Counted from the first letter of the stretch, positions 1,640 through 16,442 are shown. The stretch: DNA of 22,971 bases from a virus (IMGVR_UViG_3300008448_000694:1-22971); one strand, 5' to 3'. The notes: generated by a model not told the origin, from the letters alone. Numbers and translations: made by a program.

Positions 1640-1668
1640 GGTCCCGACGCACGGCGTGCGTCGGGACC
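1640..1668. repeat. Palindromic repeat P, copy 1
   Basis: Fourteen perfect base pairs around one central base: GGTCCCGACGCACG (1640-1653) and CGTGCGTCGGGACC (1655-1668). Core GACGCACG-S-CGTGCGTC is shared with the other P copies. It lies in the gap between the second membrane protein and the endolysin gene. Confidence 0.85.
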
Positions 1669-1707
1669 GACAGGGTTTTGCGGGAATCGGGGCCTCGGCT
1701 TGGGCCG

Positions 1708-1761
1708 TCAGGCCCGAGGGCCGCGCCGGGTCGAGAAGGCGGAGCCTTCTGGCCGCGGACC
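1708..1761 (-). repeat. Hairpin repeat R copy inside the end of a coding region
   Basis: The unit AGAAGGC-GGA-GCCTTCT (plus strand, about 1734-1750) with flanks CCGGGTCG and GGCCGCGGACC matches the other R copies. Here it is translated, forming the last 17 codons and the stop region of the 125-aa membrane protein. Confidence 0.7.
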
Positions 1762-2085
1762 ATCAACAATGTGCACACCCCGGTGCAGCGGCACGACGCC
1801 CAGCCGCCCGTCGATCCGCCCGTCGATCGCATCGACCCGCTTCACCATCTGGCCACCGTAAAGCGCCAGCAGCAGGATCAGCAGGCCCAACAGGAAGACC
1901 AGGTCGCCCATGCCGGGCGAACCGCCCAGCATCCGGGATGGCCCGGCCCAGAGCAGACCGCCGGCCATCATGGACAGGCCGATCCGCTGCCCTCTGGGCG
2001 GTGCGGTCCGACGATCCAGCAGCACGATCGCCAGCACCACGGCCACCACCCCTGCGGCCAGAGCCGCCGAAAACAGACTGATCAT
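1708..2085 (-). CDS. Second small membrane protein of the lysis cassette, with a repeat-derived C-terminus
   Basis: A 125-aa protein starting MISLFSAALAAGVVAVVLAIVLLDRR, a first membrane span. A second (RIGLSMMAGGLLWAG) and a third (GDLVFLLGLLILLLALYGG) follow, then a charged stretch KRVDAIDGRIDGRLG. It is coupled to the upstream holin candidate (ATGA) and lies before the endolysin, so it may be a second holin, an antiholin or another lysis accessory protein; this is inference. Codons 109-125 (GPRPEGSAFSTRRGPRA) coincide with a copy of the intergenic hairpin repeat found elsewhere in this window, so the original gene end may have been replaced when the repeat arrived. Confidence 0.65.
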   Translation of the reverse strand: MISLFSAALAAGVVAVVLAIVLLDRRTAPPRGQRIGLSMMAGGLLWAGPSRMLGGSPGMGDLVFLLGLLILLLALYGGQMVKRVDAIDGRIDGRLGVVPLHRGVHIVDGPRPEGSAFSTRRGPRA

Positions 2086-2495
2086 GCCCCGCCCTCCCCG
2101 CCGGCATCGGCGGGACGCCCGCCGATGGTCGCGCCGCCGATCTGGATCCGCACCAGCGACAAAGGATCCCGCGAATAGCGCGCCAGGGCCTGCGCCAGAC
2201 CCGCCAGCACGATCATGCCGAACAGGCCGCAGATAAAGCCGATCAGGTTCGCCACCGTCACCGGCACCCCGTCGCCGGGCCACCACAGCCAGTCGATCAC
2301 GTCGCAGATGAACGGGGCCAGCCACCAGGCCGAGGCCACCCCGACGCCGGCGCTCAACAGCTTGCCGCGGATGGTCAGCTTCTCGCCGAACGCCATGCTG
2401 AACACCGCACCGGCCAGACCCGGCGCATAGGGCGCTATTGTTTTCACCAGGTCGAACAGTCCGGCGGTGCCCCCGGGGGGCTGTGGATCGGCCAT
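2082..2495 (-). CDS. Small membrane protein, holin candidate
   Basis: A 137-aa protein with start ATG at 2495 and a weak GAG-type ribosome binding site. Hydrophobic stretches are at about 25-35 (GLAGAVFSMAF), 48-66 (LLSAGVGVASAWWLAPFI) and 84-104 (LIGFICGLFGMIVLAGLAQAL), with a basic/acidic C-terminus (RYSRDPLSLVRIQIGG, then EGGA). Two or three membrane spans, a size above 100 aa and a position two genes before the endolysin are what is expected of a holin, the protein that permeabilises the inner membrane at lysis time. The stop overlaps the next start as ATGA, linking it to the second membrane protein. I do not recognise a named holin family with certainty. Confidence 0.65.
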   Translation of the reverse strand: MADPQPPGGTAGLFDLVKTIAPYAPGLAGAVFSMAFGEKLTIRGKLLSAGVGVASAWWLAPFICDVIDWLWWPGDGVPVTVANLIGFICGLFGMIVLAGLAQALARYSRDPLSLVRIQIGGATIGGRPADAGGEGGA

Positions 2496-2542
2496 GACGG
2501 GTCACTCGCTATTCGGGGTTTGACGTTTTTCTGAGGCCGGGG

Positions 2543-2567
2543 CGCGACCGATCGGGGCGCGGTCGCG
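2543..2567. other. GC-rich hairpin in the gap before the lysis genes
   Basis: CGCGACCG (2543-2550) pairs perfectly with CGGTCGCG (2560-2567) around a nine-base loop. It lies in the 101-base gap between the 144-aa gene and the first membrane-protein gene. Neither strand has a U tract right after it, so it is not a standard terminator; it could affect mRNA stability or lysis-gene expression. Confidence 0.45.
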
Positions 2568-2596
2568 TGATCCTGCCGCCGGTGTCGGGTAGAGGC

Positions 2597-3031
2597 TCAG
2601 GCGGGCTGGGGCGCGGCCACCGGCATGGGCCCGGGCGCGGGCATCTGAACCGGCGCGGGCCGGACAAACACAAACTCCGGGTCCAGCTCAGGTCCTGTCG
2701 CGCCGCCGGCTTCTTCATCCAGCAGCCCCGCCGCCCATGCCGCGATCTGGTAGTGACGGTTGGCCCGGCCCCACAGATTGATCTGGTAGGTGTGCATGGC
2801 CAGTGTTCCCATGATCGAGAGCGCCGATGCGCGGCCCGGCAGGTCTTCATCCTCCGAACAGGCCCGGTAGAGACATTCCACCACCTCGATGCGAGCGCGG
2901 GCTTTGTCGTCGAGTCGGTTCAGATGGCGCATCTTCTCCTTGATCGGCTCGGCCAGCAGGGCGGCATGGTCCACTACCCAGTCATAGAAGCGGTCCAGTT
3001 CGTGAAGTGGGCCTTGGGACAGGTCAAACAT
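2597..3031 (-). CDS. Unknown small phage protein between the tail tip and lysis genes
   Basis: A 144-aa protein with start ATG at 3031 and a strong AAGGAG seven bases upstream, 23 bases after the J-like stop. It is predicted to be helical: MFDLSQGPLHELDRFYDW, KEKMRHLNRLDDKARARIEVVECLYRAC, MGTLAMHTYQINLWGRANRHYQIAAWAAGLLDEE. It ends in a Pro/Ala-rich tail (RPAPVQMPAPGPMPVAAPQPA). There is no signal peptide or clear membrane segment. I do not recognise the family. The strong ribosome binding site and its place suggest a well-expressed accessory virion or assembly protein, but no function can be given. The upstream open frame to 3277 overlaps the J-like gene and is not counted. Confidence 0.75.
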   Translation of the reverse strand: MFDLSQGPLHELDRFYDWVVDHAALLAEPIKEKMRHLNRLDDKARARIEVVECLYRACSEDEDLPGRASALSIMGTLAMHTYQINLWGRANRHYQIAAWAAGLLDEEAGGATGPELDPEFVFVRPAPVQMPAPGPMPVAAPQPA

Positions 3032-3054
3032 GGGCGGTCTCCTTGAGACTGTGG

Positions 3055-6000
3055 TTACGAGGGGTTGCGTTGAATCTGGACCAGGAGGTTCAGGCCGACC
3101 GACAGAAGGTTCTCGCCGGAGTTCGTCTTCATCCTGAGCTTCCATGTCCGCGAGCCGCCCGCCCGCACGCGCCAGCTCCGGCTCACGTCGCTGGTAGGCT
3201 CGCCAACCGTGCCGTCGACTGTGAAGCTCTCGATGTTGTCGGCACCGCCGCCGGAGCCGATCCTGACGGCCTCCCAAGTGCCGGAATCGAGGACCTTGGG
3301 CGAACCGCCACCCGTCGCGTCCTCGACGATCTCCCAGGTGCCCTGCGGATTGATTCCGGCCGTCCCGCCGCTTTTTCTGGTGCGGCTGGGCGACAGTTCA
3401 ATGTCCATGGCCATCCAGACCACCATGTAGGAGCTGGCCTGAATACTGGGCAGGGTCAGCGTGACCTTGTCGCTCATGGTCGTGCTGTTGATGTCCACCT
3501 GCGTGGAGAACTGCTTGAACAGTCCCGAGGTGTCGACCTCCTTGATTACACCCCCACTCCGCACCTTGAGGCCGTAGGGCGTCAGCGAGGTGTCGACATA
3601 GGTGTCGCCGTTCTCGATGCCCGCCGTGACGGCGGCGGCATCTCCAGCGTATTCTCCGAGGTAGCGACCGCGAACCTTGTCTTCCGTCAGCAGAGACGTG
3701 GCCAGCTCACCCTGGTCCTGCAGGAAGGCTGCGGTGCCGATGTCGGTCAGCAGGTTTGTCCGCCCGACCAGTGTGCCGCTGACGTCGTCGAAGGTGTTCT
3801 GGCCGATGCGGGTGACCATGTTGGCGGGGCCAACCTGAATGTCGATCAGATTGTTGCCGATGTAGACTATCGAAGCGCCGAACCCGAGAGTCTGGCCAGC
3901 CGCCGCCGCGCTGGTGTGGCGGACGACGCCGTTCTGAAGGTACTGCACGCGGACGCCGTCATAGACGACCGACCACACGTCGGTGATTGCCCATGCACCG
4001 ATGGCGCAGATAATGGCGACAAACGAGCCGTTCTCGTAGACATAGACCGGAGAAGTGGAAGGGAGTCCTTCGGTGAACAGGGCGTAGTTCAGGGTGACGT
4101 AGTTGCCACCAAAGGACGGATTCACCAGTCCAGCCATGGCGTAGATAGGCAGGCTCGGGCTGGTGCCGAAGCGGAACGAGCAGTAGGCGGCGCCGACATA
4201 CTTCTCGCGCGATGTCACCCCCCCGCCCCAGGCGCCATTGGTGCCGCCGACCTTGGTGACCGTGCTGCCTGTGACCGAGACCTCGGAGTTGTAGGGGACC
4301 AGCGTGACGGTCGAGACGGTGTTCTCGGTCCATGCGCCGTAAAGAACGTCGATTACGCCATGCGGGAATGCGGAGTTTACCGAGTTGAAATAGTCGAGAA
4401 CCTTCGGGAACAGGCGCTGCCCCGGCCTGGCAGGGGCGCTGAGGTAGACCACCCCATCGACAATCGCCATGACCTTCTGGCCGTCGTAGGCGATCGTGGC
4501 GCGCGAGTTCGTATTGAGCGGGACGCCAGTGGCATTGCTATAAGCTCCGTCCGCATAGAGCGCCACCTCGCCTGTACCGACGCCGTTTGCGAAGACGGTG
4601 ATGTAATAGTTCTGCCCTGAGTCGACGAAGGTTGTGGCGTCATCATCGAGTGCAAAGAATGTGATCCAGCCATCGGCAAGTCCGGCGCTCAGGATGCTGC
4701 CAGAAATGTAGGCTGAACCGTTCTGCGCAGTGCCGACAGCCCCGCCCTGGAAAGTCCCGTCGGTGCCCCCGGTCGCCTTGAAGACCTTGTTCCCGACAAT
4801 GCCTGTGTGAAGCCCCATCGTCCGGAGGTGACCGATGGTGCCGGCATTGTCTGACGGACGCCCTGCGCCGCTGACAACCCCCCATGGAGCATTGTTCGTG
4901 GAGGCAGAAGTGCCCTGCGAGGTGACCAGATCGGGGTCGGTGCCGCTGACGTCTCCGCCTCCGACGCTCACGAAGACCGGCACGGCGTTTCCGAGGAAGG
5001 TTGCGACGCTGGCCTCGTTGCCAGAGCGGTCAACGGTGCGCCCCCAGTAACGGTAGTTCAGGCCGACTGTGACGTTGATGTCGGCGAACTCCTCGTCGAC
5101 CGTAATGGTATAGGGCGACTGCGGGATATCGTCGGGGCTGAACCCGCTCGTGTTGCGGTAGATCAGCGTGTGCAGGTAGTCGGTCATCGACGGGCGCTTC
5201 TGCACCACGCGAATCCTGCGGCCTCCGACAGCCGTCACAGAGCCCGAGATGATCGCTGGCGGGAGCGTCGTCTTTCCCGCCGCCGTCGCATTGGACGACC
5301 AGGACGACCATGCTGCCGACAGCGTCCCGGTCCGGCTCAGGGCCTTGACGCGATACCGATAGGTCGGTCCGGTCGCGATGATGCGATCCTCGATCGCGTT
5401 CTCGGTGACCGGGAACTGCTGAACGATGGTCCCGTTGTCCAGCTCGATGACATAGGACAGCGCATTGCTCGGCGCGGTCCATGCCCCGAACAGGCGACTG
5501 GTCTGGGTGCCGTCGGACGCGATGGTCGAGACGATCGAGATGGTCGGCGTCCCGGCCACATTGCCCGGCGTGACAGGCACCACGTCGCCGGCCGTCAGGG
5601 CACCGGTCGTCAGCGCGATCCAGGCCGAGGCCGTCACCGGACGCGAACGACGGGTGATCGGGACCAGCCGGACCTCAATATCCTGGTTCGGACCGACGCC
5701 GTTCGTAACGGTCATCGACAGCGCGCCGACCTCATCGATGCGGGTCTGGGCCGCGACGGTCTCACCGACGCGGCGGACCTCCGCACGGATCGCGATGACT
5801 GCGGGGTCAACCGCCGACCAGCCGACCCGGACAGCCGGCACACCCGACCCCGCTCCGGCCAGCAGCACCACCTCGGCCGTCACCCCCTGGAGATCCAGCG
5901 GCGCGAGGTCGCCCGGATCCGACGGCGGATCAGATCCATCCGTCAGGGCGCTGGGATCCGTGAACACCGACGAAGCGATCTCGCGCAGCGTCAGCCGCAT

Positions 6001-7485
6001 CCGCCACTTTTCGTCCAGGGTCCAGCTTTCGATCCGGAACCGCACGGTCGAACCGGCGAACCGGCGGGCACTGGTCCAGGCGATCCAGTCGCCCTCTTCC
6101 AGCCGACCATATTCCGGCGGCAGCACAATCGTCGCGCGGCGCTCCAGACGGCCCAGACGGCGCAGGATCTCGGCGCACCGGTCGGCCTGGGCACCGGCGG
6201 TCACCAGCATCAGCGGCAGGGTGATCTCGCGGGGCCCGCCGTCGCTGGCGATGTCCGTCAGACTTCGCCGAACCGGGCCAGAGTGATCCTTCCAGTTCTG
6301 GGCCGGTTCGACATAGCGAGGGATCACGGTATTGACCCGGCCGCCGTCGCCGTCCGACAGGAACTCCGAGAAGGTCACCGGCTCGCCCGTGACCAGATCC
6401 GCATCCGTGATCGTCACGACGGCCGCCTTGGCCTGGCCCGGCTCGATCTCGACGCCGCCCTCGCGCTGGACGATCACCCCGGCCATGGCGGCGGCGAACA
6501 TTTCCTCGACGGCGATAAAGTCATCCGATGCGCGAAGCACCCCATTGGCGGTGTAGCGGGCCGCGCCGCCAACGGTTTCGTCGCACAGATTGGCGGCGGC
6601 GATCACGGCTTCCGGCGGGGCCTCCTGGGCCGACAGCCCACGCCCGACCAGCAGGTGCTCCGGCTGGCCCTGACGACCCTGGGCATAGATCCCGCGCGCG
6701 AAGGCATAGCGCAGCAGCGCCGCGTTCCGGCTGAAGGTGTGGGTCGAGGGATCGGCCCAGGTCTGGGCACCCGCGCCCGTATAGCCCAGGGCGGCATCCT
6801 TGCGCGGGTCATAGACCTTGAGGCCGCGCAGCAGGAAGCGCACCTGCGGATGGCCCTGCGGCCACACGGTTTCATCGCATTTGTAGCTGAACCAGATGTG
6901 GGTGATCGAGGCCAGAACATCGGTCGCGGCCCAGCTGCCGCCCGACGCCGTCAGGAACCGGGCCGGCGGTGCCGCCCCCGCCTGGGTCGCGTTGACGAAC
7001 TCGATGTCCAGCGCGCCGCTGAAACCGGATTGCACACCGTTGGCGGTGAAGGCGAAATACTGGTCGTCGATGTAATAGCCGACCAGGGCGTCAACCACAT
7101 GGTCGGTCAGGGCGATACAGCGCGTCACATAGTCGGTGCCGTAGCGACCGCCATGATTGAAGGCGTCGATCAAGGATCCGCCGGTCACCGCCTCGCCGAT
7201 CAGAACCTCGCGCGGGACCTCACCCAGCGACAGCGTGGTGACACTGGCCTGGCGTTCCTGGACCGAGCCCTTGGACTTGCCCAGCAGCTTGCCGGCCGCC
7301 CAGCTGAAGGCCGTGCCGAAGACGCCGTTGATCACAAACGTGGCCACGGCCGCTGCCGTGCCGGTAAAGCCGAGACCGGTCACGATCGCGGCCGTGATCG
7401 GATCGGCCTTGGCCGGGGTCGGCGACCCCAGCACCATGGCAAACACCACGCCGAAGGCAGCGGTCAGGCGCATCATCCGGTTCAT
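3055..7485 (-). CDS. Tail tip / host specificity protein (J-like)
   Basis: A 1476-aa protein likely forming the central tail-tip fibre and receptor-binding part. The ATG at 7485 overlaps the previous stop (ATGA) and has AGAGG eight bases upstream; the open frame further upstream overlaps the 138-aa gene and is not used. Residues 1-27 look like a Sec signal peptide ending AKA before D28, followed by another hydrophobic stretch. Residues about 60-500 form the tail-protein core (EREVLIGEAVTGG-like segment, IVLPPEYGRLEEGDWIAW near 455). About 540-820 hold fibronectin-III-like repeats (for example YRYRVKALSRTGTLSAAWS and NYRYWGRTVDRSGNEAS). Two lectin-like modules lie at about 870-1030 and 1080-1200, with lower GC. 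The C-terminal 240 residues begin near LLTEDKVRGRYLGEYAG. Confidence 0.85.
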   Translation of the reverse strand: MNRMMRLTAAFGVVFAMVLGSPTPAKADPITAAIVTGLGFTGTAAAVATFVINGVFGTAFSWAAGKLLGKSKGSVQERQASVTTLSLGEVPREVLIGEAVTGGSLIDAFNHGGRYGTDYVTRCIALTDHVVDALVGYYIDDQYFAFTANGVQSGFSGALDIEFVNATQAGAAPPARFLTASGGSWAATDVLASITHIWFSYKCDETVWPQGHPQVRFLLRGLKVYDPRKDAALGYTGAGAQTWADPSTHTFSRNAALLRYAFARGIYAQGRQGQPEHLLVGRGLSAQEAPPEAVIAAANLCDETVGGAARYTANGVLRASDDFIAVEEMFAAAMAGVIVQREGGVEIEPGQAKAAVVTITDADLVTGEPVTFSEFLSDGDGGRVNTVIPRYVEPAQNWKDHSGPVRRSLTDIASDGGPREITLPLMLVTAGAQADRCAEILRRLGRLERRATIVLPPEYGRLEEGDWIAWTSARRFAGSTVRFRIESWTLDEKWRMRLTLREIASSVFTDPSALTDGSDPPSDPGDLAPLDLQGVTAEVVLLAGAGSGVPAVRVGWSAVDPAVIAIRAEVRRVGETVAAQTRIDEVGALSMTVTNGVGPNQDIEVRLVPITRRSRPVTASAWIALTTGALTAGDVVPVTPGNVAGTPTISIVSTIASDGTQTSRLFGAWTAPSNALSYVIELDNGTIVQQFPVTENAIEDRIIATGPTYRYRVKALSRTGTLSAAWSSWSSNATAAGKTTLPPAIISGSVTAVGGRRIRVVQKRPSMTDYLHTLIYRNTSGFSPDDIPQSPYTITVDEEFADINVTVGLNYRYWGRTVDRSGNEASVATFLGNAVPVFVSVGGGDVSGTDPDLVTSQGTSASTNNAPWGVVSGAGRPSDNAGTIGHLRTMGLHTGIVGNKVFKATGGTDGTFQGGAVGTAQNGSAYISGSILSAGLADGWITFFALDDDATTFVDSGQNYYITVFANGVGTGEVALYADGAYSNATGVPLNTNSRATIAYDGQKVMAIVDGVVYLSAPARPGQRLFPKVLDYFNSVNSAFPHGVIDVLYGAWTENTVSTVTLVPYNSEVSVTGSTVTKVGGTNGAWGGGVTSREKYVGAAYCSFRFGTSPSLPIYAMAGLVNPSFGGNYVTLNYALFTEGLPSTSPVYVYENGSFVAIICAIGAWAITDVWSVVYDGVRVQYLQNGVVRHTSAAAAGQTLGFGASIVYIGNNLIDIQVGPANMVTRIGQNTFDDVSGTLVGRTNLLTDIGTAAFLQDQGELATSLLTEDKVRGRYLGEYAGDAAAVTAGIENGDTYVDTSLTPYGLKVRSGGVIKEVDTSGLFKQFSTQVDINSTTMSDKVTLTLPSIQASSYMVVWMAMDIELSPSRTRKSGGTAGINPQGTWEIVEDATGGGSPKVLDSGTWEAVRIGSGGGADNIESFTVDGTVGEPTSDVSRSWRVRAGGSRTWKLRMKTNSGENLLSVGLNLLVQIQRNPS

Positions 7486-7898
7486 CGGCTGGCCTCTGTT
7501 TCCGCGACCGTCCAGGCGGCGATCAGTGACGACCGATCGGCGCGGATCAGTCCCCGCTCCGGACCCGGTCCGACCACCAGAGCCCCCTCGACCAGCACCA
7601 GACCGCCGCCCGAAATCAGCCCGACCGCGCCGCGCGGGGCCAGGGTCGGAGAAATCGGCGTCATCACCGTGCCGACGGCAGCGGCCAGCCCACCATGCCG
7701 GGCCAGCACCCGACGCGCGCCGGACGATGTCCGCCATTGGCTGGCGAACCGATCCAGCGGATTGATCCCGGTCATCGCCTCGACGCCGGCCCCGCAGAAC
7801 CGGGCGCAGTCGTGCGTCCTGGGCTCCGGCCCATAACCGAAGATCCAGTCTTCCCGGTCTTCCAGGAAGGCGATGAAGGTGGCGGCTGAAGGGGACAT
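7482..7898 (-). CDS. NlpC/P60-related tail protein, DUF6950-like
   Basis: A 138-aa protein coupled at both ends (TGATG upstream, ATGA downstream). Residues 28-45 (THDCARFCGAGVEAMTG) match the start of NlpC/P60-type and DUF6950 proteins, with C31 in the place of the catalytic cysteine. The rest (ARRVLARHGGLAAAV, then the Gly/Leu/Val-rich SGGGLVLVEGALVVGPGPERGL and IAAWTVAE) follows the DUF6950 layout, but I see no later histidine in a suitable position; the only candidates are H29, beside the cysteine, and H68. It may therefore be a structural rather than active peptidase. In lambda the protein at this place (gpK) helps assemble the tail tip and may cut peptidoglycan. Confidence 0.72.
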   Translation of the reverse strand: MSPSAATFIAFLEDREDWIFGYGPEPRTHDCARFCGAGVEAMTGINPLDRFASQWRTSSGARRVLARHGGLAAAVGTVMTPISPTLAPRGAVGLISGGGLVLVEGALVVGPGPERGLIRADRSSLIAAWTVAETEASR

Positions 7899-8533
7899 CA
7901 GACCAGATTCACCAGATCGGAGTCCGCGGACCCCACACCGCCGCCACCGCCGAAGGCCTCACCGGCGCGAACCGGCGGGCGGCCGCCGAAATAGATGACC
8001 TTCTCGCCGGCGAAGGTGACGCGCCGCAGGCCGCCGTCGGTGGCGGAAATCAGACGCTGGTCCGAATCCGTGCGCATCCGCTCCGAACGGCGGCCCAGTC
8101 CACGGGCCGCGCCCTCGACAGCGATCCGGATGATCGCCTCGCCGCCCGGCGTCTCTTCCGACGTGGCACGGTCGACACGGCCGCGCAGGAATACGGAGTC
8201 CTGCAGCAGGTTCGTGCCGGTGCCGTCGAAGATCAGCCGGCGGATCACGACGGACACACCGCGCAGGCTGGCCAGACCCAGGGACGGCATCGCATCGGGA
8301 TCCACGCCCGACAGCGTCAGTTCCGGACCCTGTTCCTGCCCGCCCAGCTGGCCGCCGGAGACCCGGATCAGGCCGCGCTGGCCCAGACCCGCATAGACCT
8401 CGGAGTCCAGGGTCAGGGGACCGTGGCCGCCCCATACCCGCAGCGGCGTGGCCGTTCCGAAACGGACAGCCCCGGACACGATGGCGGTGCCGTCGCGCAG
8501 GGCGGCGAGCGCGGGGGCGCTGAACGTCTTCAT
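7898..8533 (-). CDS. Tail tip / baseplate hub-like protein (DUF2163-like position)
   Basis: A 211-aa protein with start ATG at 8533 preceded by GGAG at eight bases. Segments PALAALRDGTAIVSGAVRFG and LTLDSEVYAGLGQRGLIRVSG suggest a beta-rich domain, followed by GPELTLSGVDPDAMPSLGLA and, near the end, RRSERMRTDSDQRLISATDGG and EKVIYFGGRP. The pattern of a basic segment ending in DQR followed by an acidic-Gly turn recurs in tail hub proteins that precede an NlpC/P60 gene and a J-type gene. Neighbour order (hub, NlpC-like, J-like) parallels both lambda L-K-J and gene transfer agent tail-tip clusters. A Gly-rich tail (EAFGGGGGVGSADSD) closes the protein. Its stop overlaps the next start (TGATG). 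Confidence 0.6.
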   Translation of the reverse strand: MKTFSAPALAALRDGTAIVSGAVRFGTATPLRVWGGHGPLTLDSEVYAGLGQRGLIRVSGGQLGGQEQGPELTLSGVDPDAMPSLGLASLRGVSVVIRRLIFDGTGTNLLQDSVFLRGRVDRATSEETPGGEAIIRIAVEGAARGLGRRSERMRTDSDQRLISATDGGLRRVTFAGEKVIYFGGRPPVRAGEAFGGGGGVGSADSDLVNLV

Positions 8534-8561
8534 CGTAAGCTCCCCGGTTGGAATCAGAAAG

Positions 8562-8588
8562 CGACCGACGCACGCCGTGCGTCGGTCG
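8562..8588. repeat. Palindromic repeat P, copy 2
   Basis: Thirteen perfect base pairs (8562-8574 with 8576-8588) around a central C, same core as copy 1. It lies upstream of the hub-like gene start and next to two copies of hairpin repeat R. Confidence 0.85.
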
Positions 8589-8601
8589 GCTGGTTACTGG
8601 C

Positions 8602-8711
8602 CAAACATCCAGCCCGCGTCGGGTCGGGAGGTCCCGAAGGGCCGACGACCGCGGGCCAAGTATCCAGCCCGCGTCGGATCGACAGGGCGGAGCCCTGTGA
8701 CCGCGGGCCAC
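8602..8711 (-). repeat. Hairpin repeat R, two tandem copies
   Basis: Two adjacent units, about 8602-8658 and 8659-8711, share outer arms (CCAGCCCGCGTCGG on one side, GACCGCGGGCC on the other). The inner parts differ: the second holds ACAGGGC-GGA-GCCCTGT (8682-8698, plus-strand reading), the first a short CGGGA/TCCCG hairpin. The outer arms GCCCGCG and CGCGGGC can pair, giving a long double hairpin per unit. The units fill the gap between the tail tip and hub-like genes. Confidence 0.8.
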
Positions 8712-8718
8712 AAAGATA

Positions 8719-9381
8719 TCAGGCCCGGAGATCCTGCAGGCCGGCGACGGTGCCGGACGTGCGAAGGTTGCGGGTCTTTTCCCCGAGGCGAGTCTCGGCT
8801 GTGTCCAGCCTCATGATGCAGACCGGATTGGCCAGATCCGCGACAGCACCGCCCGGAATCAGGGTCGGCAACGGCGGCTCCACCCGCAGCGTCACGGCGC
8901 CGGAGCCGTTGGCCGTCGAGGCCTCGACCAGGACGTGCAAGGATCGCCGGGGCTCGGACGACGTCACCCAGCGCCACATCACATAGTCACCGATCGACAG
9001 CACAAAGCCGGCCGGCAGGCCGGTCAGGGCAGGTTGATCGCGCTCGGCATTGACGGACCATGACGCGGCGGAACCATCGAAAGCGCCGCCGCCGGCCCGG
9101 TTCAGGCCGCCGAAACCGGACGGATAGGCCAGCGGAAAGGGCCGCCCACGGTCCCCGGCATACCAGGGGATCTGTGCCCCCCGGCACCGCCGAACGAACG
9201 CCCGCCATTCTTCCGACGTGGCCTGCAGGATGCGGTCGCCGATGGTCCAGCGCGCGCGCCACAGCGGAAAGCCCGCCGTGACGCCGGTGGCACGACCGTC
9301 CGTGGTCGGCGACTGGAAGTCGACCCGCTCGATCTCGAAATACTCGGCACCGACGCCGCGCGGCGGGGTCAGGACGGTCAT
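8719..9381 (-). CDS. Tail tip protein downstream of the tape measure (function uncertain)
   Basis: A 220-aa protein, translationally coupled to the tape measure gene (ATGA). It begins MTVLTPPRGVGAEYFEIERV, contains RARWTIGDRILQATSEEWRAFVRRCRGAQIPWYAGD, a Gly-rich PLAYPSGFGGLNRAGGG segment, a beta-rich SIGDYVMWRWV and SLHVLVEASTANGSGAVTLRV, and ends with CIMRLDTAETRLG. The sequence looks like a mostly beta tail-tip component. Position corresponds to the distal tail / gpM-L slot of siphophages, which seals the tube and binds the hub. I do not recognise a named family with confidence. It ends just before the 185-base repeat-rich gap. Confidence 0.6.
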   Translation of the reverse strand: MTVLTPPRGVGAEYFEIERVDFQSPTTDGRATGVTAGFPLWRARWTIGDRILQATSEEWRAFVRRCRGAQIPWYAGDRGRPFPLAYPSGFGGLNRAGGGAFDGSAASWSVNAERDQPALTGLPAGFVLSIGDYVMWRWVTSSEPRRSLHVLVEASTANGSGAVTLRVEPPLPTLIPGGAVADLANPVCIMRLDTAETRLGEKTRNLRTSGTVAGLQDLRA

Positions 9382-12116
9382 CGGATCACCCGGCGGTTCA
9401 TGGCGTCCTGAACGATCTGCGGCACGACGGACGGCAGGGAGTTGGCCATGGCGTCCAGCTTGGCACTGAGGGCGTCGATCTCACGGGGGCCGGCACCCTC
9501 GGCATGGATCACCGGGGCGAAGCTGAACGAAACCGCCTGCGGGCCGCCGGATCCAGCCGCACCCGCGACCGCCAGCCGCCGGCTGCGGTCCGCATCGATC
9601 ACCTGGGCACCGCGCGGCAGGTTGACCAGTTCCGGACCTTCCTCGCCGACCCAGCTGGGCCCGCCCGGCCACCAGTCCGTGCCCCGGGCGTTACGACCGA
9701 AGCCGCCGAACAGGGTCGAGGCCAGCGCCGACAGCCAGTCTCCGCCGCCGGGCTTGCCCTTGCCGCCCATGATCGCCGCGAAATCCATCTCGAACAGACT
9801 GTCGATCAACCTGTCGATCAGACGGTCTGCCGCGGACTCGAACTGATTGCCCAGAGCGTCGGCGATTCCGCCCTGACGGATGTCGTCAATGAAGCCTTTG
9901 ACCCAGACCCGGCGCACGCCCTCGGCCTCGGCATCGATCTCCTGGCCGATCTCAACGCCCGCACGGCTTTCGCCGGCTCCGAAATTCAGCTTCTCGCGCG
10001 CTTCGATTTCGCGGGCGCGGCGCGCAATCCGCTCTTGCCGCTCCAGCAGCCGAACCTCGTCTTCACGGCCGGCCATGCGCGCCAGCGTCAGCTGATGCTC
10101 GGCGGCGGCCGTTTCGACCATCCGCGCCATCACATCCGCGCGCGCCTGCTCCACCAGCAATTGGTCCGTTGACGCCTTCAGCCAGGCATCGAGATACCCC
10201 CGGCCCGCTTCCAGATAGTCATTGATCCGACCGTGCCACTCGGCACTCTCTTCCGAAAGCTGAACGTCCCGTTCCATGCCCAGGATCCGGTCAACCTCGA
10301 TGGCGGCCGAGACCTGCAGGGCATTTGTCTCGCGCGCCGTGACGACCGCCCGGGCCGCGAGGATCTGCTGCTGTTCCTGCAGGGCCTGGGTGCGCGCCGC
10401 GCCGGCCTCGACATCGGCATCGACCAGCTGACGGATCCGCTCACGGACCGCCGCTTCGTCCTCCAGGATCCGCACATGATCGATGTCGTTCAGCGCGCGC
10501 GACATCTCCAGCTCGAGCATCGCCGCACGATCTTCAGCCGCACGATCACGCTGCAGTCTCTCGCGGACGAGGCGGTCGCCTGAACGGTCGGCGCCGGCGC
10601 CGCCCTGGCGCAGGGCAGCCAAGCGAGCAAGACGCAGGCGTTCTTCTTCGTCTTCCTTGTTCTTGGCGGCGGCGGCAAGTGCCACTTCCCGGCGCTGCCC
10701 ATCCAGCTGGCGGCGCAGCAGGCCAGCGCGCTCTTCTTCGAGGCCGCTGATGAAGCCGGGTGCCAGCCGGATGCCCCGCGCCTCGCGATTGCGGGCAGCG
10801 ATCAGTTCGCGGTCAAGGTTGGCCAGCCGTTCGTCCGGCGTGACATACAGGGCGCGATTTAGCTGGTCCCAATAGTTGCTGAGCTTGCGGGCCGCATTGT
10901 CCCATAAACCCTCTAGCTGACCGATCTGTTCGGCGTGCCCACTGGTGGCACCGCGCAAAGCCTCAATCAGGATCAGTTGCGCCTCTTCCTTTTTGCCCAG
11001 CTTCACCAGCGTGTCGATGTAATCGAGCGTCTTGCCGTCCAACAGGCCGAAGCTCAACGTCATAGCATGCGCGGCCTTGTCTGGTTCCGCCATCGCGCGG
11101 GCCAACTGGGTCGTGGCCTCTGCCGCGTCCACACCCATAAAGGATGCGTAATCCTTGCCGATCTCGATCAGATCATCGATGACCGCTTTGCCGATATTGC
11201 CGGTCTGGACATAGGCGGCGGCTTGCTCCCGCGCGGAGCGCACCGAGACCTCGCCCTGGATCGCCGCGACCTGCGCCAGGGTTTCCAGTTCGATTGCCGT
11301 CATACCGGAGGTCCGGCCCAGACCGGTCACCGCCCGGTCCAGCATCAACGCCTGCGACTCACCCTCTTTCCAGGCAACGGCCGCCACCGTCGCCGCCGCG
11401 GCCGCAGCCGTCAAACCCGCACCCAGCGCCAGCAGACCGGCCGACGCGCGGATCCCGCTGGTTGCCAGGGCGTCCGCGATCTGCGGACCCTGCTGGATCG
11501 CGATCATCGCCGGGTTCATGCCCATGGCCGCCGTCACGGCGACATCCGCGCCCTGTCGGGCGAGGTTCAGCCGACTGGCCACCTGGTTGCGGGTCAGGCC
11601 ATTGGTATTCTGCGCCAGGGACGCCGTCGTGGCGTCCAGTCGGGTCTTCGCCAGTTCCTGAGCCCGGGCCAGCTCCAGGGTGCTGATGGCCCCGCGCTTT
11701 TGCAGGGCCTCATATTCGCGCAGTTCGGCGTTGTAGCGGTCAGTCGCCGCCGCCAGCGGATCTATCTCCGCCTTCAGCTGGGCCGCGCGGCGCGCCGCGT
11801 CTTCATCGGCCCGAAATGCTGCGGCGAAAACATCCGCCGAGGCACTGGCGCTGCCGGCACCGGAGACGCCGCCGATGCCGAGTACCGAATTGAACTGGTT
11901 CTGGGCCTGCGCCGCCTGCGCCGCCATCCGCAGGGCCTCGGCATTCCGGCGCCACTGGGCCTCCTGTCGCGCGGCGGCCTGGGTCGCGCGGTCCGTCGCG
12001 GCGGCCGTGGCGGCGTTCGCCTGCACGCCGGCCTGTTCGATCTTGCGGACTTCGCTGACGACCTCGGCCCCGCCCTCTGCCGTGAGCCGGAGCGCGATCT
12101 GACGGGTGGCGGCCAT
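9378..12116 (-). CDS. Tail length tape measure protein
   Basis: A 912-aa protein that sets tail length and is ejected with DNA. The N-terminal 100 residues are Ala/Gln/Arg-rich coiled coil. A tape-measure core with RLNLARQGADVAVTAAMGMNPAMIAIQQGPQIADAL follows, then a hydrophobic stretch at about 220-243 (LLALGAGLTAAAAAATVAAV) that could insert in the host membrane, long charged helices (about 430-700), and the family C-terminus: FESAADRLIDRLIDSLF followed by ARGTDWWPGGPSWVGEEGPE and LVNLPRGAQVI (about 800-830). It is the second longest gene of the window, in the expected place after the chaperone. Its stop overlaps the next start as ATGA. Confidence 0.93.
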   Translation of the reverse strand: MAATRQIALRLTAEGGAEVVSEVRKIEQAGVQANAATAAATDRATQAAARQEAQWRRNAEALRMAAQAAQAQNQFNSVLGIGGVSGAGSASASADVFAAAFRADEDAARRAAQLKAEIDPLAAATDRYNAELREYEALQKRGAISTLELARAQELAKTRLDATTASLAQNTNGLTRNQVASRLNLARQGADVAVTAAMGMNPAMIAIQQGPQIADALATSGIRASAGLLALGAGLTAAAAAATVAAVAWKEGESQALMLDRAVTGLGRTSGMTAIELETLAQVAAIQGEVSVRSAREQAAAYVQTGNIGKAVIDDLIEIGKDYASFMGVDAAEATTQLARAMAEPDKAAHAMTLSFGLLDGKTLDYIDTLVKLGKKEEAQLILIEALRGATSGHAEQIGQLEGLWDNAARKLSNYWDQLNRALYVTPDERLANLDRELIAARNREARGIRLAPGFISGLEEERAGLLRRQLDGQRREVALAAAAKNKEDEEERLRLARLAALRQGGAGADRSGDRLVRERLQRDRAAEDRAAMLELEMSRALNDIDHVRILEDEAAVRERIRQLVDADVEAGAARTQALQEQQQILAARAVVTARETNALQVSAAIEVDRILGMERDVQLSEESAEWHGRINDYLEAGRGYLDAWLKASTDQLLVEQARADVMARMVETAAAEHQLTLARMAGREDEVRLLERQERIARRAREIEAREKLNFGAGESRAGVEIGQEIDAEAEGVRRVWVKGFIDDIRQGGIADALGNQFESAADRLIDRLIDSLFEMDFAAIMGGKGKPGGGDWLSALASTLFGGFGRNARGTDWWPGGPSWVGEEGPELVNLPRGAQVIDADRSRRLAVAGAAGSGGPQAVSFSFAPVIHAEGAGPREIDALSAKLDAMANSLPSVVPQIVQDAMNRRVIR

Positions 12117-12117
12117 A

Positions 12118-12816: not shown

Positions 12817-12819
12817 GGC

Positions 12820-13556
12820 CTAGTCCTCGGCTTCCGAATTCTGATCTTCGCCCTTCAGCGCCAGCAGCACGACCGTCTCGATCTGCGGCAGGACGTCGGC
12901 CAGCAGGGCCGCATCGGCGCCCAGCGCCTGGCCGACCTGCATCACGGCACCGAAGTCCAGGCCGTAAGGTCCGTTCATGCCCATCCGCAGCTGCCAGCGG
13001 CAGCCCTTCAGGACTTGCCAGGCGCTCTGGCCGGCCACGGTCCGGGGCTGGTTTACGACGGCGGGGCACTCTCCGCAGCGGCGTCCGTTGTCGGCGATAC
13101 ATCCGTCGCAGTAGCTGTCGCCGCCCTCGGGGTGGAACTCCCACCTTGCGAGGGCGACAAGCCGTTTTTTTCCGCTTCGGCCTCCAGCAGCGGGCCCGCG
13201 TACTGGCGCTCGAACGCCTCATAGGCCGGGTACCAGCCCAGCAGCCGGTCAACCTGTTCCGGCGTCGGCTGGCCTTCGATCGGCGAACCGTCGACATCGG
13301 CCACGCCCTCCAGGGTCCGCAGGCCGCCTGGCCGATCGGGCGGAGCGTCAGGATCCGGGCGATGCACCAGCGCGCCGATCAGGGCGCAGCGATACCGCGA
13401 ATGCAGGTCGTGCGGCTCGCCCTCGCCGGTGGCCAGAACCAGATCACGCGCCCGGCCCTTGGCGCGCATATAGTCATAGGGCTGGATCGGGTCGCAGACC
13501 GCGACGGCACCGCCACCCAGGTCAATCCGAACGGGGTCGAAACTCTTCAGCTGCAT
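12820..13556 (-). CDS. Tail assembly chaperone, long (GT-like) product by -1 frameshift
   Basis: If ribosomes slip by -1 at A_AAA_AAC (13170-13164), the frame continues without a stop from CGG at 13164 to TAG at 12820, giving 131 + 114 = 245 aa. The extension begins RLVALARWEFHPEGG, contains four cysteines spaced CX2CX7CX2C (C150, C153, C161, C164), and ends with QSAWQVLKGCRWQLRMG, GPYGLDFGAVMQVGQALGAD and IETVVLLAL. The last segment resembles DUF1799-type proteins that serve as the T part in lambda-like phages. The downstream frame has only a GTG (13038) with no clear ribosome binding site as its own start, which favours expression as a fusion. Coordinates are given as one span; the frame changes at 13164. 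Confidence 0.8.
13053..13556 (-). CDS. Tail assembly chaperone, short (G-like) product
   Basis: Zero-frame product of 167 aa, ending at TAA 13053. Residues 1-131 (MQLKSFDPVRIDLGGG, then YDYMRAKGRARDLVLATGEG, PEQVDRLLGWYPAYEAFERQY, EAEAEKNG) form the shared domain. The last 36 residues after the slippery site are Ser/Thr/Ala-rich and look unstructured, as expected when the functional continuation lies in another frame. In siphophages the gene just upstream of the tape measure gene makes chaperones that coat the tape measure protein during tail assembly. Only a weak Shine-Dalgarno (GAG) precedes the ATG at 13556, and a stem-loop at 13581-13608 lies 25 bases upstream. Confidence 0.8.
   Translation of the reverse strand: MQLKSFDPVRIDLGGGAVAVCDPIQPYDYMRAKGRARDLVLATGEGEPHDLHSRYRCALIGALVHRPDPDAPPDRPGGLRTLEGVADVDGSPIEGQPTPEQVDRLLGWYPAYEAFERQYAGPLLEAEAEKNGLSPSQGGSSTPRAATATATDVSPTTDAAAESAPPS
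13117..13170 (-). promoter_or_regulatory. Programmed -1 frameshift signal: slippery heptamer plus stem-loop
   Basis: Coding strand reads GAA AAA AAC in the zero frame, so the heptamer A AAA AAC (13170-13164) has the classical X XXY YYZ register. Five bases later an imperfect hairpin starts: GTC pairs with GAC (13158-13156 with 13119-13117), GCCCTCG with CGAGGGC (13155-13149 with 13129-13123) and an upper stem GGTGG with CCACC (13145-13141 with 13135-13131). A GGC bulge and a small internal loop interrupt it. Heptamer, spacer and stem-loop are the standard parts of a -1 frameshift element. Confidence 0.85.
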
Positions 13557-13580
13557 GGGGTCGGACTCGGTTAAGGCGAA

Positions 13581-13608
13581 AGCCCCGCCCGCTTTCGCAG
13601 GCGGGGCT
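13581..13608 (-). terminator. Stem-loop between the tail tube and chaperone genes
   Basis: AGCCCCGCC (13581-13589) pairs with GGCGGGGCT (13600-13608), nine perfect pairs around a ten-base loop. On the transcribed strand it is followed by TTTCGCCTTAA, a poor U tract, 25 bases before the chaperone ATG. It could be a partial terminator lowering chaperone synthesis relative to tail tube protein. That role is inference. Confidence 0.5.
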
Positions 13609-13635
13609 GGGGGGAGGTAGGTGAGTATTCGGTGT

Positions 13636-13652
13636 GACGCACGCCGTGCGTC
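13636..13652. repeat. Palindromic repeat P, copy 3
   Basis: Core palindrome of eight base pairs around a central C (13636-13643 with 13645-13652), without extended arms. It lies in the 197-base gap between the tail tube and chaperone genes; a separate perfect GCCGGGCGCCCGGC palindrome follows at 13665-13678. Confidence 0.8.
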
Positions 13653-13679
13653 GGTTCGGGATTGGCCGGGCGCCCGGCG

Positions 13680-13753
13680 CCCAGCCCGCGTCGGGTCGAC
13701 CCGAAGGGCGGCGCGAAAGCAGTCACAGGGCGGAGCCCTGTGACCGAGGGCCT
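13680..13753 (-). repeat. Hairpin repeat R, copy after the tail tube gene
   Basis: It carries the left arm CCAGCCCGCGTCGGGTCGAC and a perfect ten-pair hairpin GTCACAGGGC-GGA-GCCCTGTGAC (13722-13744, plus-strand reading), separated by extra bases that include CCCGAAGGGC. It begins right after the tail tube stop and could act as a terminator or mRNA end. Confidence 0.75.
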
Positions 13754-15046
13754 CTAGTAAGCCGTCACGTCATTGACCAGAACCGCCCGCAGTGTGCGCT
13801 GGGTCGCGGCCCTCTCGGTCGGCTTCATCTGGAAGGTCGTCCGGATCCCGCCGGGACCGGTCAGGCCCACCTTGCGACGCGGCAGGCGGACGTTCTCCAT
13901 GATGAAGTCGAGGCTCTTTTGCGGGCCGATCTGCCACCCCAGACGGACCGAAATCGGCGTCCGGGCCGTCGCAAGATCGTACAGGACCCGGTCGGCGAAA
14001 CGGACCGTGACATCCAGGCCGACGGAAAGCATGGCCGGATCCGCGCCCCCGATACGGCCGTCCGGACGGATCGATTCATCCTTCTCCAGATTGTTGCCGA
14101 TCCGCAGGGTCGCGCTCTCGACCCTGCCCAGCGGCACGCCGTCCTGTTCGATGATGCCCGAGAACTGGCTGAACCGCTCGGTGAGCCAGTCCGCAGCGAG
14201 CGTCCCCGCCATCGAGCTGACACCGACGTTTTCCCCCTGGCCGACCAGAGAGAGGGTGGCGTTCAGCAGGCCGGACCGCTGCATCTGGATCGACAGGTCG
14301 TTGACCATGACGCCATAGTTCATGCCGAAGTGCGGCACATCCGGGAAACCCAGCTGAACCGCCGCATCGGGGTGGGCCAGCTGCCCGGCGGTGAAAACGT
14401 GGTTGAAGGCTCCCGAGGCCGCGCCGCCGGTCAAGGTGGCGGCCGAGCGCGTCGCGTTCGTCGCCGGGGTGACGCCGGCCACCAGGGTGAAGCTGTTGCC
14501 GGCCGTCCCGACCGTATCGTGAACGATGTTCAGCACCGTGCCCGACAGGCTGGCCGAATAGGTGGCGACGGAAATGAGCGGGTCGGCGCTGGCATTCAGG
14601 AAGGCAACCAGGTTGGCCACCGTCTCCGCGATCGTTGCGCCGATCCTGCACTGGCCCGCGATGGGGGCGGCCGTCACAAGGGTGACGGTCGTGCCGTTGA
14701 TGGTCAGGATCGAGTTGTTCACCGGAAGGGCGGAAAACGTGTACGACCCGGAAGCAAACAGCCCCGCCGTGGTGACCGGGTTGCCCAGCAAAAGCCGAAG
14801 CCACAGGCCGAAATGCCTCAGATCGACAGGCACAACCGCCTGACCCTCATTGTTGACGACGTCATTGCCGCCGTCCTGCGGATCGCGACCGAAGCCGAGA
14901 ACGACGTCGTCCAGTACGTCCTGTTCCTCGCCCAGATCCACACTGACGACCGGGACCTTGCGGAACCCGGAAGCGGGAATCGATCCGTAGTCGCCCGTGG
15001 CAATCGCCATGGCAACAATGCCGTTTGCACCGCGAGCGCGAGCCAT
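13754..15046 (-). CDS. Major tail tube protein with an inserted domain
   Basis: A 430-aa protein forming the tail tube. The N-terminal part (GSIPASGFRKVPVVSVDLG, then LRHFGLWLRLLLGNP, about 20-90) and the C-terminal part (FNHVFTAGQ, GFPDVPHFGMNYGVMVNDLSI, about 213 onwards, to RKVGLTGPGGIRTTFQMKPTER) read as one tail-tube family protein. Between them, residues about 100-212 hold an extra Ser/Thr/Ala-rich beta segment with NSILTINGTTVTLVT, GATIAETVANLVAFLNASAD and GTAGNSFTLVAG. The insert sits where the tube family usually runs directly from GPYTH to VFT, so it is probably a domain displayed in a loop on the tail surface. ATG at 15046 follows GGAG six bases upstream. Confidence 0.82.
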   Translation of the reverse strand: MARARGANGIVAMAIATGDYGSIPASGFRKVPVVSVDLGEEQDVLDDVVLGFGRDPQDGGNDVVNNEGQAVVPVDLRHFGLWLRLLLGNPVTTAGLFASGSYTFSALPVNNSILTINGTTVTLVTAAPIAGQCRIGATIAETVANLVAFLNASADPLISVATYSASLSGTVLNIVHDTVGTAGNSFTLVAGVTPATNATRSAATLTGGAASGAFNHVFTAGQLAHPDAAVQLGFPDVPHFGMNYGVMVNDLSIQMQRSGLLNATLSLVGQGENVGVSSMAGTLAADWLTERFSQFSGIIEQDGVPLGRVESATLRIGNNLEKDESIRPDGRIGGADPAMLSVGLDVTVRFADRVLYDLATARTPISVRLGWQIGPQKSLDFIMENVRLPRRKVGLTGPGGIRTTFQMKPTERAATQRTLRAVLVNDVTAY

Positions 15047-15070
15047 GGAAGTCTCCGTTGTTCAGGTTGA

Positions 15071-15115
15071 CAGGCCATGTCGGGTCGGGAAGGCGGAGCC
15101 TTCTCGCCACGGGCC
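15071..15115 (-). repeat. Hairpin repeat R, copy before the tail tube gene
   Basis: A diverged copy: the inner hairpin GAAGGC-GGA-GCCTTC (15089-15103) is flanked by GTCGGGTCGG and CCACGGGCC. It occupies most of the 90-base gap between the U-like and tail tube genes. Confidence 0.7.
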
Positions 15116-15136
15116 AAAGGGAGATCGCCCGGCCCG

Positions 15137-15568
15137 CTACAGCGGGCTGGACGTGCTGTAATAGGCGATGATCGCCGCTTCGCTGGCCGCGCCGGACTCG
15201 GCACCGGCGATGTCCAGGTCACCCCGGTCGGGGGCGGTCGTCTCCAGCCATTCGACCAGCCCGCCCAGGGTCCGGTCCGCTTCCACGGCCGCGCCGACGG
15301 CGCTTTGCAGCGCATCCAGCACCTGGTCGGCGGTCTGGCCGGGCGTCGGCACCGCGCCGAACAACAGTCCGAACCGGTGCGAATAATTGTAGCTCAGGGG
15401 CGAAAGATCGACGTCGGGCTCGCCCGGATCGCCGTCCGAGATATCGACCGCGCCGACGGGAGGGATTTCATCCGGCTTTGTGCGATTCCGCGTCACCAGC
15501 GCCAGCGGCACGGCTGTCTCGACCAGAGACTTGATCGCGGCACCGACCTGTTCACGCTTGCTGGTCAC
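15137..15568 (-). CDS. Putative tail terminator / minor tail protein U-like
   Basis: A 143-aa protein. The start is a GTG at 15568 with a strong GGAGG five bases upstream; no ATG fits as well. An N-terminal helix (REQVGAAIKSLVETAVPLA) is followed by LVTRNRTKPDEIPP, DLSPLSYNYSHRFGLLFGA, a helix DQVLDALQSAVGAAVEADR, then GLVEWLETTAPD and a short C-terminal strand. This alternation and size fit tail terminator proteins of the gpU type, which cap the tail tube and join it to the head. Position between the FII-like and tail tube genes supports this. Proteins like this one are sometimes labelled acyl-CoA transferase in databases, for which I see no basis. No gpZ-like gene precedes it. Confidence 0.55.
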   Translation of the reverse strand: MTSKREQVGAAIKSLVETAVPLALVTRNRTKPDEIPPVGAVDISDGDPGEPDVDLSPLSYNYSHRFGLLFGAVPTPGQTADQVLDALQSAVGAAVEADRTLGGLVEWLETTAPDRGDLDIAGAESGAASEAAIIAYYSTSSPL

Positions 15569-15579
15569 GGAAACCTCCG

Positions 15580-15640
15580 GGCCGGGTCGGGTCGGGAGAT
15601 CCCCCCGATGCCTCGCATGGGGGGTCGACGATCACGGCCC
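15580..15640 (-). repeat. Hairpin repeat R-related copy before the U-like gene
   Basis: The flanks (GGCCGGGTCGGGTCGGGAG and ATCACGGCCC) resemble the other R copies, but the inner hairpin differs: CCCCCC and ATGC pair with GCAT and GGGGGG (15601-15624) around CTC with one bulged G. One end lies next to the GGAGG that serves the GTG start of the U-like gene. Confidence 0.55.
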
Positions 15641-15644
15641 CATA

Positions 15645-15959
15645 TCAAGAGGGCAGTTCCTTGACTTCGCAGGTCCAGACCCGCGTGCGCGTCAGACGCG
15701 GCTTTGCGACAACCTGCAGCACCACGCCGTCGCCGGCGCGCGTGACGGTATCGCCGACGGCCGGGTCGGCGACCTCGCTTTGGCGCACTCGAACAAACCG
15801 GGTCCGAACAATGCGCTGGCCTTCACCCCAGCCGTCCAGATCGTCCCGTTCGGCGCAGCGGATCCGCACGGAACCCACCACCCCGCTCCAGGCCGCATCC
15901 TCGCCGAGGGCGCGGAAGACAGCATCCTGCTGGCGGTCCACGGCCCCGGCGAAAGACAT
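15645..15959 (-). CDS. Head-tail attachment protein, lambda FII-like
   Basis: A 104-aa protein starting MSFAGAVDRQQDAVFRALGE at 15959, eight bases after the DUF2190 stop. The N-terminal helix and the beta-rich remainder (VRIRCAERDD, RFVRVRQSEVADPAVGDTV, GVVLQVVAKPR, WTCEV) match the layout of the FII/Phage_attach family, which binds the portal end and accepts the tail. The frame is open far upstream (to 16493), but that part overlaps DUF2190 and has no family character. The Shine-Dalgarno is weak, so translation may depend on coupling to the upstream gene. Assignment rests on pattern and on position at the head-tail boundary. Confidence 0.72.
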   Translation of the reverse strand: MSFAGAVDRQQDAVFRALGEDAAWSGVVGSVRIRCAERDDLDGWGEGQRIVRTRFVRVRQSEVADPAVGDTVTRAGDGVVLQVVAKPRLTRTRVWTCEVKELPS

Positions 15960-15967
15960 CGGCTGGC

Positions 15968-16300
15968 CTAGATCGTCGGCTGCAGACGGACGCGACCGAC
16001 CGCAGCGGCGGCCAGTTTGGCGTCGACCGCATAGCCGGCCTTCTGGTTGCTGCCGACGGTCGTGGTGAAGTTCTTGGCCGTGTCGTCCCAGTACAACAGA
16101 ACGCCCTGGGTCCAGGCCTGGGAGGTGGCGGCCGCGAGGTCGAACACGCCCGTGACGGCACCCGAGAAGGTTGCGCCGACGGGAGCCGTGATGGCGGGCA
16201 CAGCGATGATGCTGCCGATCTTGACCGGCGCGCCGGCCACAACCCCGCCCGAGGGCGCGATCAGGTCCAGGCTGTCGCCCGGCTGGACGAAGTTCTTCAT
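15968..16300 (-). CDS. DUF2190-family capsid (decoration-type) protein
   Basis: A 110-aa protein beginning MKNFVQPGDSLDLIAPSGG, a typical DUF2190 opening. The rest, with VKIGSIIAVPAI, GATFSGAVTGVFDLA, VLLYWDDTAKNFTT and GYAVDAKLAA, fits the small beta-rich fold of that family. Members commonly follow the major capsid gene and are thought to serve as capsid cement or decoration proteins, in the place of lambda gpD. The open frame extends upstream to 16369, but I chose 16300 because AAGGA lies eight bases upstream and the extension is an Arg-rich translation of the intergenic repeat. The 167-base gap before it holds the UUCG hairpin and one palindrome copy. Confidence 0.85.
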   Translation of the reverse strand: MKNFVQPGDSLDLIAPSGGVVAGAPVKIGSIIAVPAITAPVGATFSGAVTGVFDLAAATSQAWTQGVLLYWDDTAKNFTTTVGSNQKAGYAVDAKLAAAAVGRVRLQPTI

Positions 16301-16351
16301 GGTCGTTTTCCTTGCTCTTGAGGGGCCCTTGGCAGAACGCCGCCGGCGAAG

Positions 16352-16390
16352 ACAGGCGGGCCGACGCACGCCGTGCGTCAGTCCGCCTGT
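16352..16390. repeat. Palindromic repeat P, copy 4, with outer arms
   Basis: The core palindrome (16363-16379) is enclosed by a second stem, ACAGGCGG (16352-16359) with CCGCCTGT (16383-16390). It lies in the gap between the capsid fusion and the DUF2190 gene, downstream of the UUCG hairpin in the direction of transcription. Confidence 0.8.
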
Positions 16391-16416: not shown

Positions 16417-16442
16417 ATCGGGGCCGCCGAAGCGGCCCCGAT
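16417..16442 (-). terminator. UUCG-capped hairpin after the major capsid gene
   Basis: A perfect 11-bp stem (16417-16427 with 16432-16442) closes a TTCG loop on the transcribed strand, with a C-G closing pair, i.e. the very stable cUUCGg tetraloop. It begins about 25 bases after the fusion-gene stop. The bases after it on the transcript (TTCCTTCGCTTTG) are only moderately U-rich, so it may be a partial terminator or a 3'-end stabiliser for capsid mRNA rather than a full stop. Confidence 0.7.

Follow-up and report, generated by a model that had tools for sequence, protein, structure and literature searches.

Two unrelated palindromic elements in the gaps of a siphovirus late operon: a host-genus hairpin and a candidate genome-wide site array for a KorB/ParB-like phage protein

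The operator OB, an odd palindrome centred on S, is present at several points of plasmid RK2. Its protein, KorB, acts as a CTP clamp, sliding away from the operator to silence promoters at distances of over 1 kb (PMC11790492). Dispersed palindromes are also carried by phages: in Cluster O mycobacteriophages such as Corndog, which are without integrase, 34 copies of a 17-bp dyad with a 3-nt spacer lie in gaps and within genes, and a ParB-like protein is encoded in the same genome, to which the palindromes were never linked, the authors leaving their function open (PMC4351075). Cluster A stoperators are dispersed repressor sites of phage-specific sequence, asymmetric, oriented and read by an unrelated repressor (PMC6550527), and the SPbeta site SPBRE is a repeated prophage site, few in number and promoter-associated, whose reader MrpR is a recruited DNA-binding fold of the recombinase type and the master repressor (PMC10516654). 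In alphaproteobacteria, the MucR proteins are gene silencers that also shape the nucleoid (PMC10746212). A 2025 survey of the ParB fold reports phage fusions, with no MucR among those in its main text (PMC12704722), and in the open-access literature we found no paper linking palindrome arrays of the kind described below to a ParB-like reader.

At the locus analysed here, the palindrome P shares with the Cluster O sites the many dispersed dyads in gaps and genes and the ParB-like protein of the same genome, and differs from them in sequence, spacer and copy number; from the stoperators it differs in symmetry and putative reader, and from SPBRE in the number and placement of the sites and the fold of the reader. 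The CTPase and HTH part of that putative reader has KorB as its best structural match, from which the phage protein differs by an added winged helix at the N-terminus and, in some cases, a Ros/MucR domain at the C-terminus; unlike OB, the P sites are mostly intragenic and evenly spaced, and no ParA/IncC partner was found here.

The window, meaning the whole stretch of DNA that was analysed, is an IMG/VR virus record of 22,971 b. It carries a lambda-type siphovirus module for head, tail and terminase, in which every identified gene is on the minus strand; among these are a fusion of head maturation protease and major head protein (16468..18585, -, phrog_4523, E 7.5e-173), the terminase large subunit (20300..22444, -, phrog_15, E 1.2e-157), the tape measure protein (9378..12116, -, PF06791, E 8e-39) and a tail tip or putative tail protein (3055..7737, -, PF13550, E 3.2e-14). 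No close relative was found by megablast against GenBank phages, and no Rfam family reached its gathering score in the window; relatives were sought with the head fusion gene, and an exact scan of IMG/VR for P returned true relatives together with chance matches in unrelated phages. A preliminary description of this DNA had likened two families of intergenic palindromes, P and the hairpin unit R, to REP/BIME elements. Our preferred reading, to which we give a probability of about 0.78, is that two unrelated elements share these gaps, R being a hairpin of the host genus and P a genome-wide site array of a KorB/ParB-like clamp of the phage; the REP/BIME likeness largely stood for R, as an intergenic 3' hairpin of the host genus, and fell for P, whose array is phage-specific.

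P is the exact 17-mer GACGCACG-S-CGTGCGTC, present in four copies in the window against none expected (0 in 100 dinucleotide shuffles), well in excess of chance. All four copies are intergenic with flanking genes on the minus strand. Site 1 (1646..1662) forms the centre of a perfect 29-bp palindrome (1640-1668) and lies between the next downstream gene and a small gene (1763-2107, -), and site 2 (8567..8583) is the core of a 27-bp palindrome (8562-8588) in the gap between genes 8719-9381 (-) and 7898-8533 (-). Site 3 (13636..13652) lies in the gap that follows the minor tail gene (13754-15046, -), a border at which P is also found in the relatives G006 and G002, and site 4 (16363..16379) in the gap after the major head/protease gene, where G006 also carries P. 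Pairing extends beyond the core at three copies, over 1640-1668 and 8562-8588 and, imperfectly, around 16363. A fifth site, a perfect 15-bp core ACGCACGCCGTGCGT (22707..22721) overlooked in the preliminary description, is within the terminase small-subunit gene (22444-22962, -) and covers the codons Y-A-R-R-A, the same codons carrying a site in G006 and G002. The description of P as a gap-filling element was right for the four exact copies and not for this fifth core, nor for the copies of related phages, which are mostly intragenic. Two other inverted repeats were seen in these gaps, a GC-rich terminator-like hairpin ATCGGGGCCGC-CGAA-GCGGCCCCGAT directly after the major head gene (16417-16442), and a palindrome GGGCGCCCGGCGCCC between R and P (13668-13682) that is also present in G006 at 14744.

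Outside the window, P was found in prophages and phages. In the 3.3-Mb genome of B. intermedia, 9 of the 11 matches of RCGMACGSCGTKCGY fall within one 30-kb prophage, which also holds a relative of the head gene, and across 131 Brevundimonas genomes most had 0-3 matches, with seven genomes having 6-13, clustered in phage regions; P is absent from the host chromosomes outside prophages, which is the outcome that the preliminary description had itself named as speaking against a REP-type element. Related phages carry 4-10 copies per genome in a quasi-regular, genome-wide arrangement, and unbiased palindrome counting, in five phages read whole or in part and in additional prophages, put a P-type site first among odd palindromes by copy number in every array phage. 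Mean spacing was 2.7-7.5 kb with a coefficient of variation of 0.20-0.46, more even than random placement (P 0.0003 to 0.14 for single phages, and 1e-12 combined, the latter being optimistic since the phages are related).

The spelling of the arms is specific to the phage (CGAACG, CGCACG, CGAGCG or CGAACC), both arms being altered together, and genome G131 holds two prophages with two spellings, GCGAACG-S-CGTTCGC and GCGCACG-S-CGTGCGC. Between G003 and G004, six or seven of nine sites are at homologous codons of genes whose proteins are 62-92% identical, and at the same codons of a primase-like gene three phages have CGAACGCCGTTCGCA (RTPFA), CGAGCGCCGCTCGCA (RAPLA) and CGCACGCCGTGCGTC (RTPCV), so both arms have shifted jointly and the encoded protein has been altered along with them. 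When sites were chosen by their outer arms only, a central G-N-C was conserved in 79 of 83; a hairpin would have no need of these loop bases, and their conservation fits a protein dimer reading duplex DNA. Judged by these sequence patterns, P behaves as a candidate array of phage protein-binding sites and unlike a mobile intergenic repeat. The G002 record has, close to its terminus (42761-42799), a pair of P-type sites 24 bp apart, one with CGAACG and one with CGCACG arms, an arrangement that resembles a promoter-operator region.

The arrays are coupled to one protein family. Of the 131 Brevundimonas genomes, seven have at least six sites, seven encode the ParB-like protein, and six have both (Fisher P 8e-9; here, as in the IMG/VR comparison below, the phages are related and the trials non-independent). 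G019, which was found by its protein alone, has its own array of six copies of TGCGAACC-S-GGTTCGCA, a spelling previously unseen, so that the prediction of an array from the protein came true, and each of the two differently spelled prophages of G131 encodes its own ParB-like protein. For IMG/VR, every palindrome with 6-bp arms and a spacer of 0-5 was counted at 18 loci retrieved with the protein as the only query (all having the winged helix and the ParB part; near-duplicates or previously known loci such as L222, L223 and L232 are included). In 14 of the 18 a single palindrome recurred three times or more, in every case with a centre of 1 nt and arms of CGNNC[GC] type, and the remaining four had either two exact copies or copies with one mismatch, of these same types. 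Among loci fetched by the head protein, 3 of 54 had a palindrome at least three times and none had one four times (P 6e-9 against the protein-fetched loci). The protein is in this way associated with a cognate palindromic site in its own replicon, and the pairing of array and protein is strongly supported as a sequence association.

Five gene families recur in every one of the eight array prophages, namely TerL, a lambda-type portal, a primase-like, a methyltransferase-like and the ParB-like protein, and the array does not track the structural module, since G112, G131b and G019 do not share most of the head and tail genes. Of the five, the ParB-like protein would be the natural reader of P; another common product could read the arrays instead, for example the methyltransferase-like protein, which is likewise encoded by all eight array prophages. 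In G092 an array is present and the ParB-like gene is absent within 60 kb of contig. The window, a fragment of 23 kb, is without this gene, and its presence in the window's own phage is inferred from the relative G002. The six-site array of G092 is located at C80:25962-39461. Distant ParB-like genes were also seen beside other repeats, one adjoining eight copies of GACAGATTT-N-AAATCTGTC within 7 kb of an unrelated phage contig (L281:12280-18994), and one in a contig with three copies of TTTACG-N-CGTAAA (L254:4600-18414).

The ParB-like protein consists of an N-terminal winged helix and a predicted KorB/ParB CTPase fold with HTH, to which a C-terminal Ros/MucR domain is fused in G003, G004 and G043 (PF05443; E near 1e-30 for G003 and G004), and its GERRW and EN..R motifs are invariant. 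Pfam ParB_N stayed under its cut-off of 26.3 bits (18.7-20.6 bits, with no match in G004), phrog ParB families matched at E 1e-8 to 1e-11, and tblastn against GenBank phages gave no close relative. The structure of the first 290 residues was predicted with a pLDDT of 89; among the fold-library matches listed, a fold missing from these never being taken as absent, the best match of residues 86-290 was KorB (8qa9, Z 13.8, rmsd 5.3, 169 aligned), with ParB and Noc within 1 Z unit, and residues 1-84 matched MarR-type winged helices (Z 10-11). By predicted fold, by the GERR and EN..R motifs and by its HTH, the protein qualifies as a member of the ParB/KorB family. In G003 and G004 one P site lies within the gene of the ParB-like protein. 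When protein columns were compared with site spelling, the top-scoring columns belonged for the most part to the HTH and CTPase domains of the ParB part, and the winged-helix motif RDPSN was paired with CGAAC arms in 6 of 7 cases and with no other arms; the column-by-column association was set aside as confounded by ancestry, and RDPSN was kept as a lead only.

We infer that P is bound by this protein, which would act as a clamp and probably silence or organise phage DNA. A protein dimer would recognise each odd palindrome, the protein of the phage itself setting the spelling, and would load at P as a nucleotide-dependent clamp, from where it may slide into the adjoining DNA and so cover the phage genome from loading points 3-7 kb apart.

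Other readings of P were weighed against this one. Host REP/BIME mobility, suggested by a palindrome in gaps adjoining R, is refuted as an origin of P by the host counts; P being absent from chromosomes outside prophages, phage-specific in spelling and placed at homologous codons of coding sequence, we regard this reading as scarcely credible. A transcript hairpin in the late operon, serving as terminator, attenuator or 3' stabiliser, would suit the four window copies in gaps, three of which have outer pairing of differing sequence, and is very improbable given the mostly intragenic copies of the relatives at conserved codons, the conservation of three central bases that would be unpaired in any hairpin, and the lack of a T tract after P in the window gaps. 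P could also be a parS centromere of a plasmid-like prophage, as the ParB/KorB fold would suggest, related ParB proteins binding parS; no ParA (PF13614) was found in any of nine phage records, so that the gene set falls short of ParABS, the prophages are in chromosome-size contigs (3.4 Mb for G131 and 4.0 Mb for G112), and the sites are phage-wide and unclustered, which makes partition improbable. Both the RNA hairpin and classical partition were set aside on codon and centre conservation, on the lack of ParA and on the spread of the sites. Stoperator-like sites of a classical CI-type immunity repressor would, like those of Cluster A (PMC6550527), be dispersed and phage-specific, and G003 does encode an S24/CI-like protein; a GDSM-type S24 protein was found by motif search in one of the eight array prophages, CI is outside the five families common to the array phages, where the ParB-like protein is inside, and P is a perfect dyad, unlike the asymmetric and oriented sites of Cluster A, so that P does not fit the stoperator class, and we consider a CI-type reader unlikely, to about the same degree as a centromere.

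If the sites do load a KorB/ParB-like clamp, its output has to be considered separately. Since ParA was not found and the prophages are in chromosome-size contigs, the clamp would on our analysis more likely repress or organise phage DNA, in the manner of KorB or, through the MucR domain, of H-NS, than serve plasmid-type partition. Silencing is the favoured output, with packaging, protection and counter-silencing as alternatives. A clamp that counters silencing or protects, evicting host nucleoid proteins in the manner of VirB or shielding from nucleases, would suit the even spacing as whole-genome protection and has a precedent in VirB, described as a CTP-dependent anti-silencer of the ParB family (PMC10676424); three of the phage proteins carry Ros/MucR, a domain of silencer type in alphaproteobacteria (PMC10746212), and this output seems rather doubtful to us. 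More tentatively, and at somewhat less than even odds, the clamp with its winged helix, in some cases plus MucR, may form a temperate-phage chromatin that coats the whole prophage from evenly spaced, phage-private sites and marks it as self, co-resident prophages using mutually exclusive spellings. Dispersed phage palindromes such as those of Corndog had no known function, and the arrays described here are tied to one protein family; together with the in silico success of the G019 prediction, this makes the reader of the sites directly testable. If the clamp reading is true, long-range DNA coating of the KorB type would extend to whole prophages, and the presence of intragenic sites at steady distances would be explained.

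R is a 46-nt imperfect hairpin, and its covariance model was built from the window copies and related copies. Five matches were found in the window (E 1e-5 to 3e-9), all on the minus strand, in agreement with the single orientation described earlier: 1716..1761, 1 nt past the stop of gene 1763-2107 (-); 8664..8709, 9 nt past the stop of gene 8719-9381 (-); 8609..8657, a second tandem copy in the same gap with a UUCG-type inner hairpin; 13681..13752, a copy with a 26-nt insert, 1 nt past the stop of gene 13754-15046 (-); and 15070..15115, after gene 15137-15568 (-). A divergent, weaker R-like hairpin at about 15582-15634 (-) was below the model threshold and was aligned only. The gaps of R and P overlap incompletely, the 16363 gap having P without R and the 15070 gap R without P. 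Where both had been described (near 1640-1761, 8562-8711 and 13636-13753), the order R then P along transcription was confirmed, and it recurs in relatives (14757 then 14713 in G006; C174 3343-3387 then 3329-3343 in Brevundimonas G043); this order arises because R sits 1-21 nt past the upstream stop codon.

The search of host genomes proposed earlier gave R in at least 63 of 131 Brevundimonas genomes, with up to at least 21 scored copies per genome, these counts being lower bounds as 47 candidates were scored per genome. On first scoring, 25 of 30 host loci had the copy in an intergenic position, a few of the five others being short loci with the copy misplaced, and many copies start 2-6 nt past a stop codon in sense orientation. 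Both stems vary in a compensatory way: four pairs of the outer stem are changed on both sides (0 of 500 shuffles as high), and the inner stem is paired in nearly all distinct copies. Placed just past stop codons in sense, R would probably act at the mRNA 3' end. Like REP/BIME elements, R is a short imperfect hairpin, intergenic and repeated across host genomes, with pairs present; unlike them, it is oriented to gene 3' ends, and a REP transposase (Y1/RAYT, PF01797), searched for within the genus, was found in 4 of the 131 genomes against at least 63 with R. The term REP-like is fair for R because it is a repeated hairpin at intergenic 3' positions across genomes of the host genus, and it is largely right to describe R as a REP-like 3' hairpin of Brevundimonas that is also carried by the phage, without a REP transposase. 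R supports Brevundimonas as host of the window's phage and falls short of proof. In one host genome, two inverted R copies 604 bp apart occur twice (G116:C1:1304944-1305593 and 1979996-1980645), as if bounding a repeated unit.
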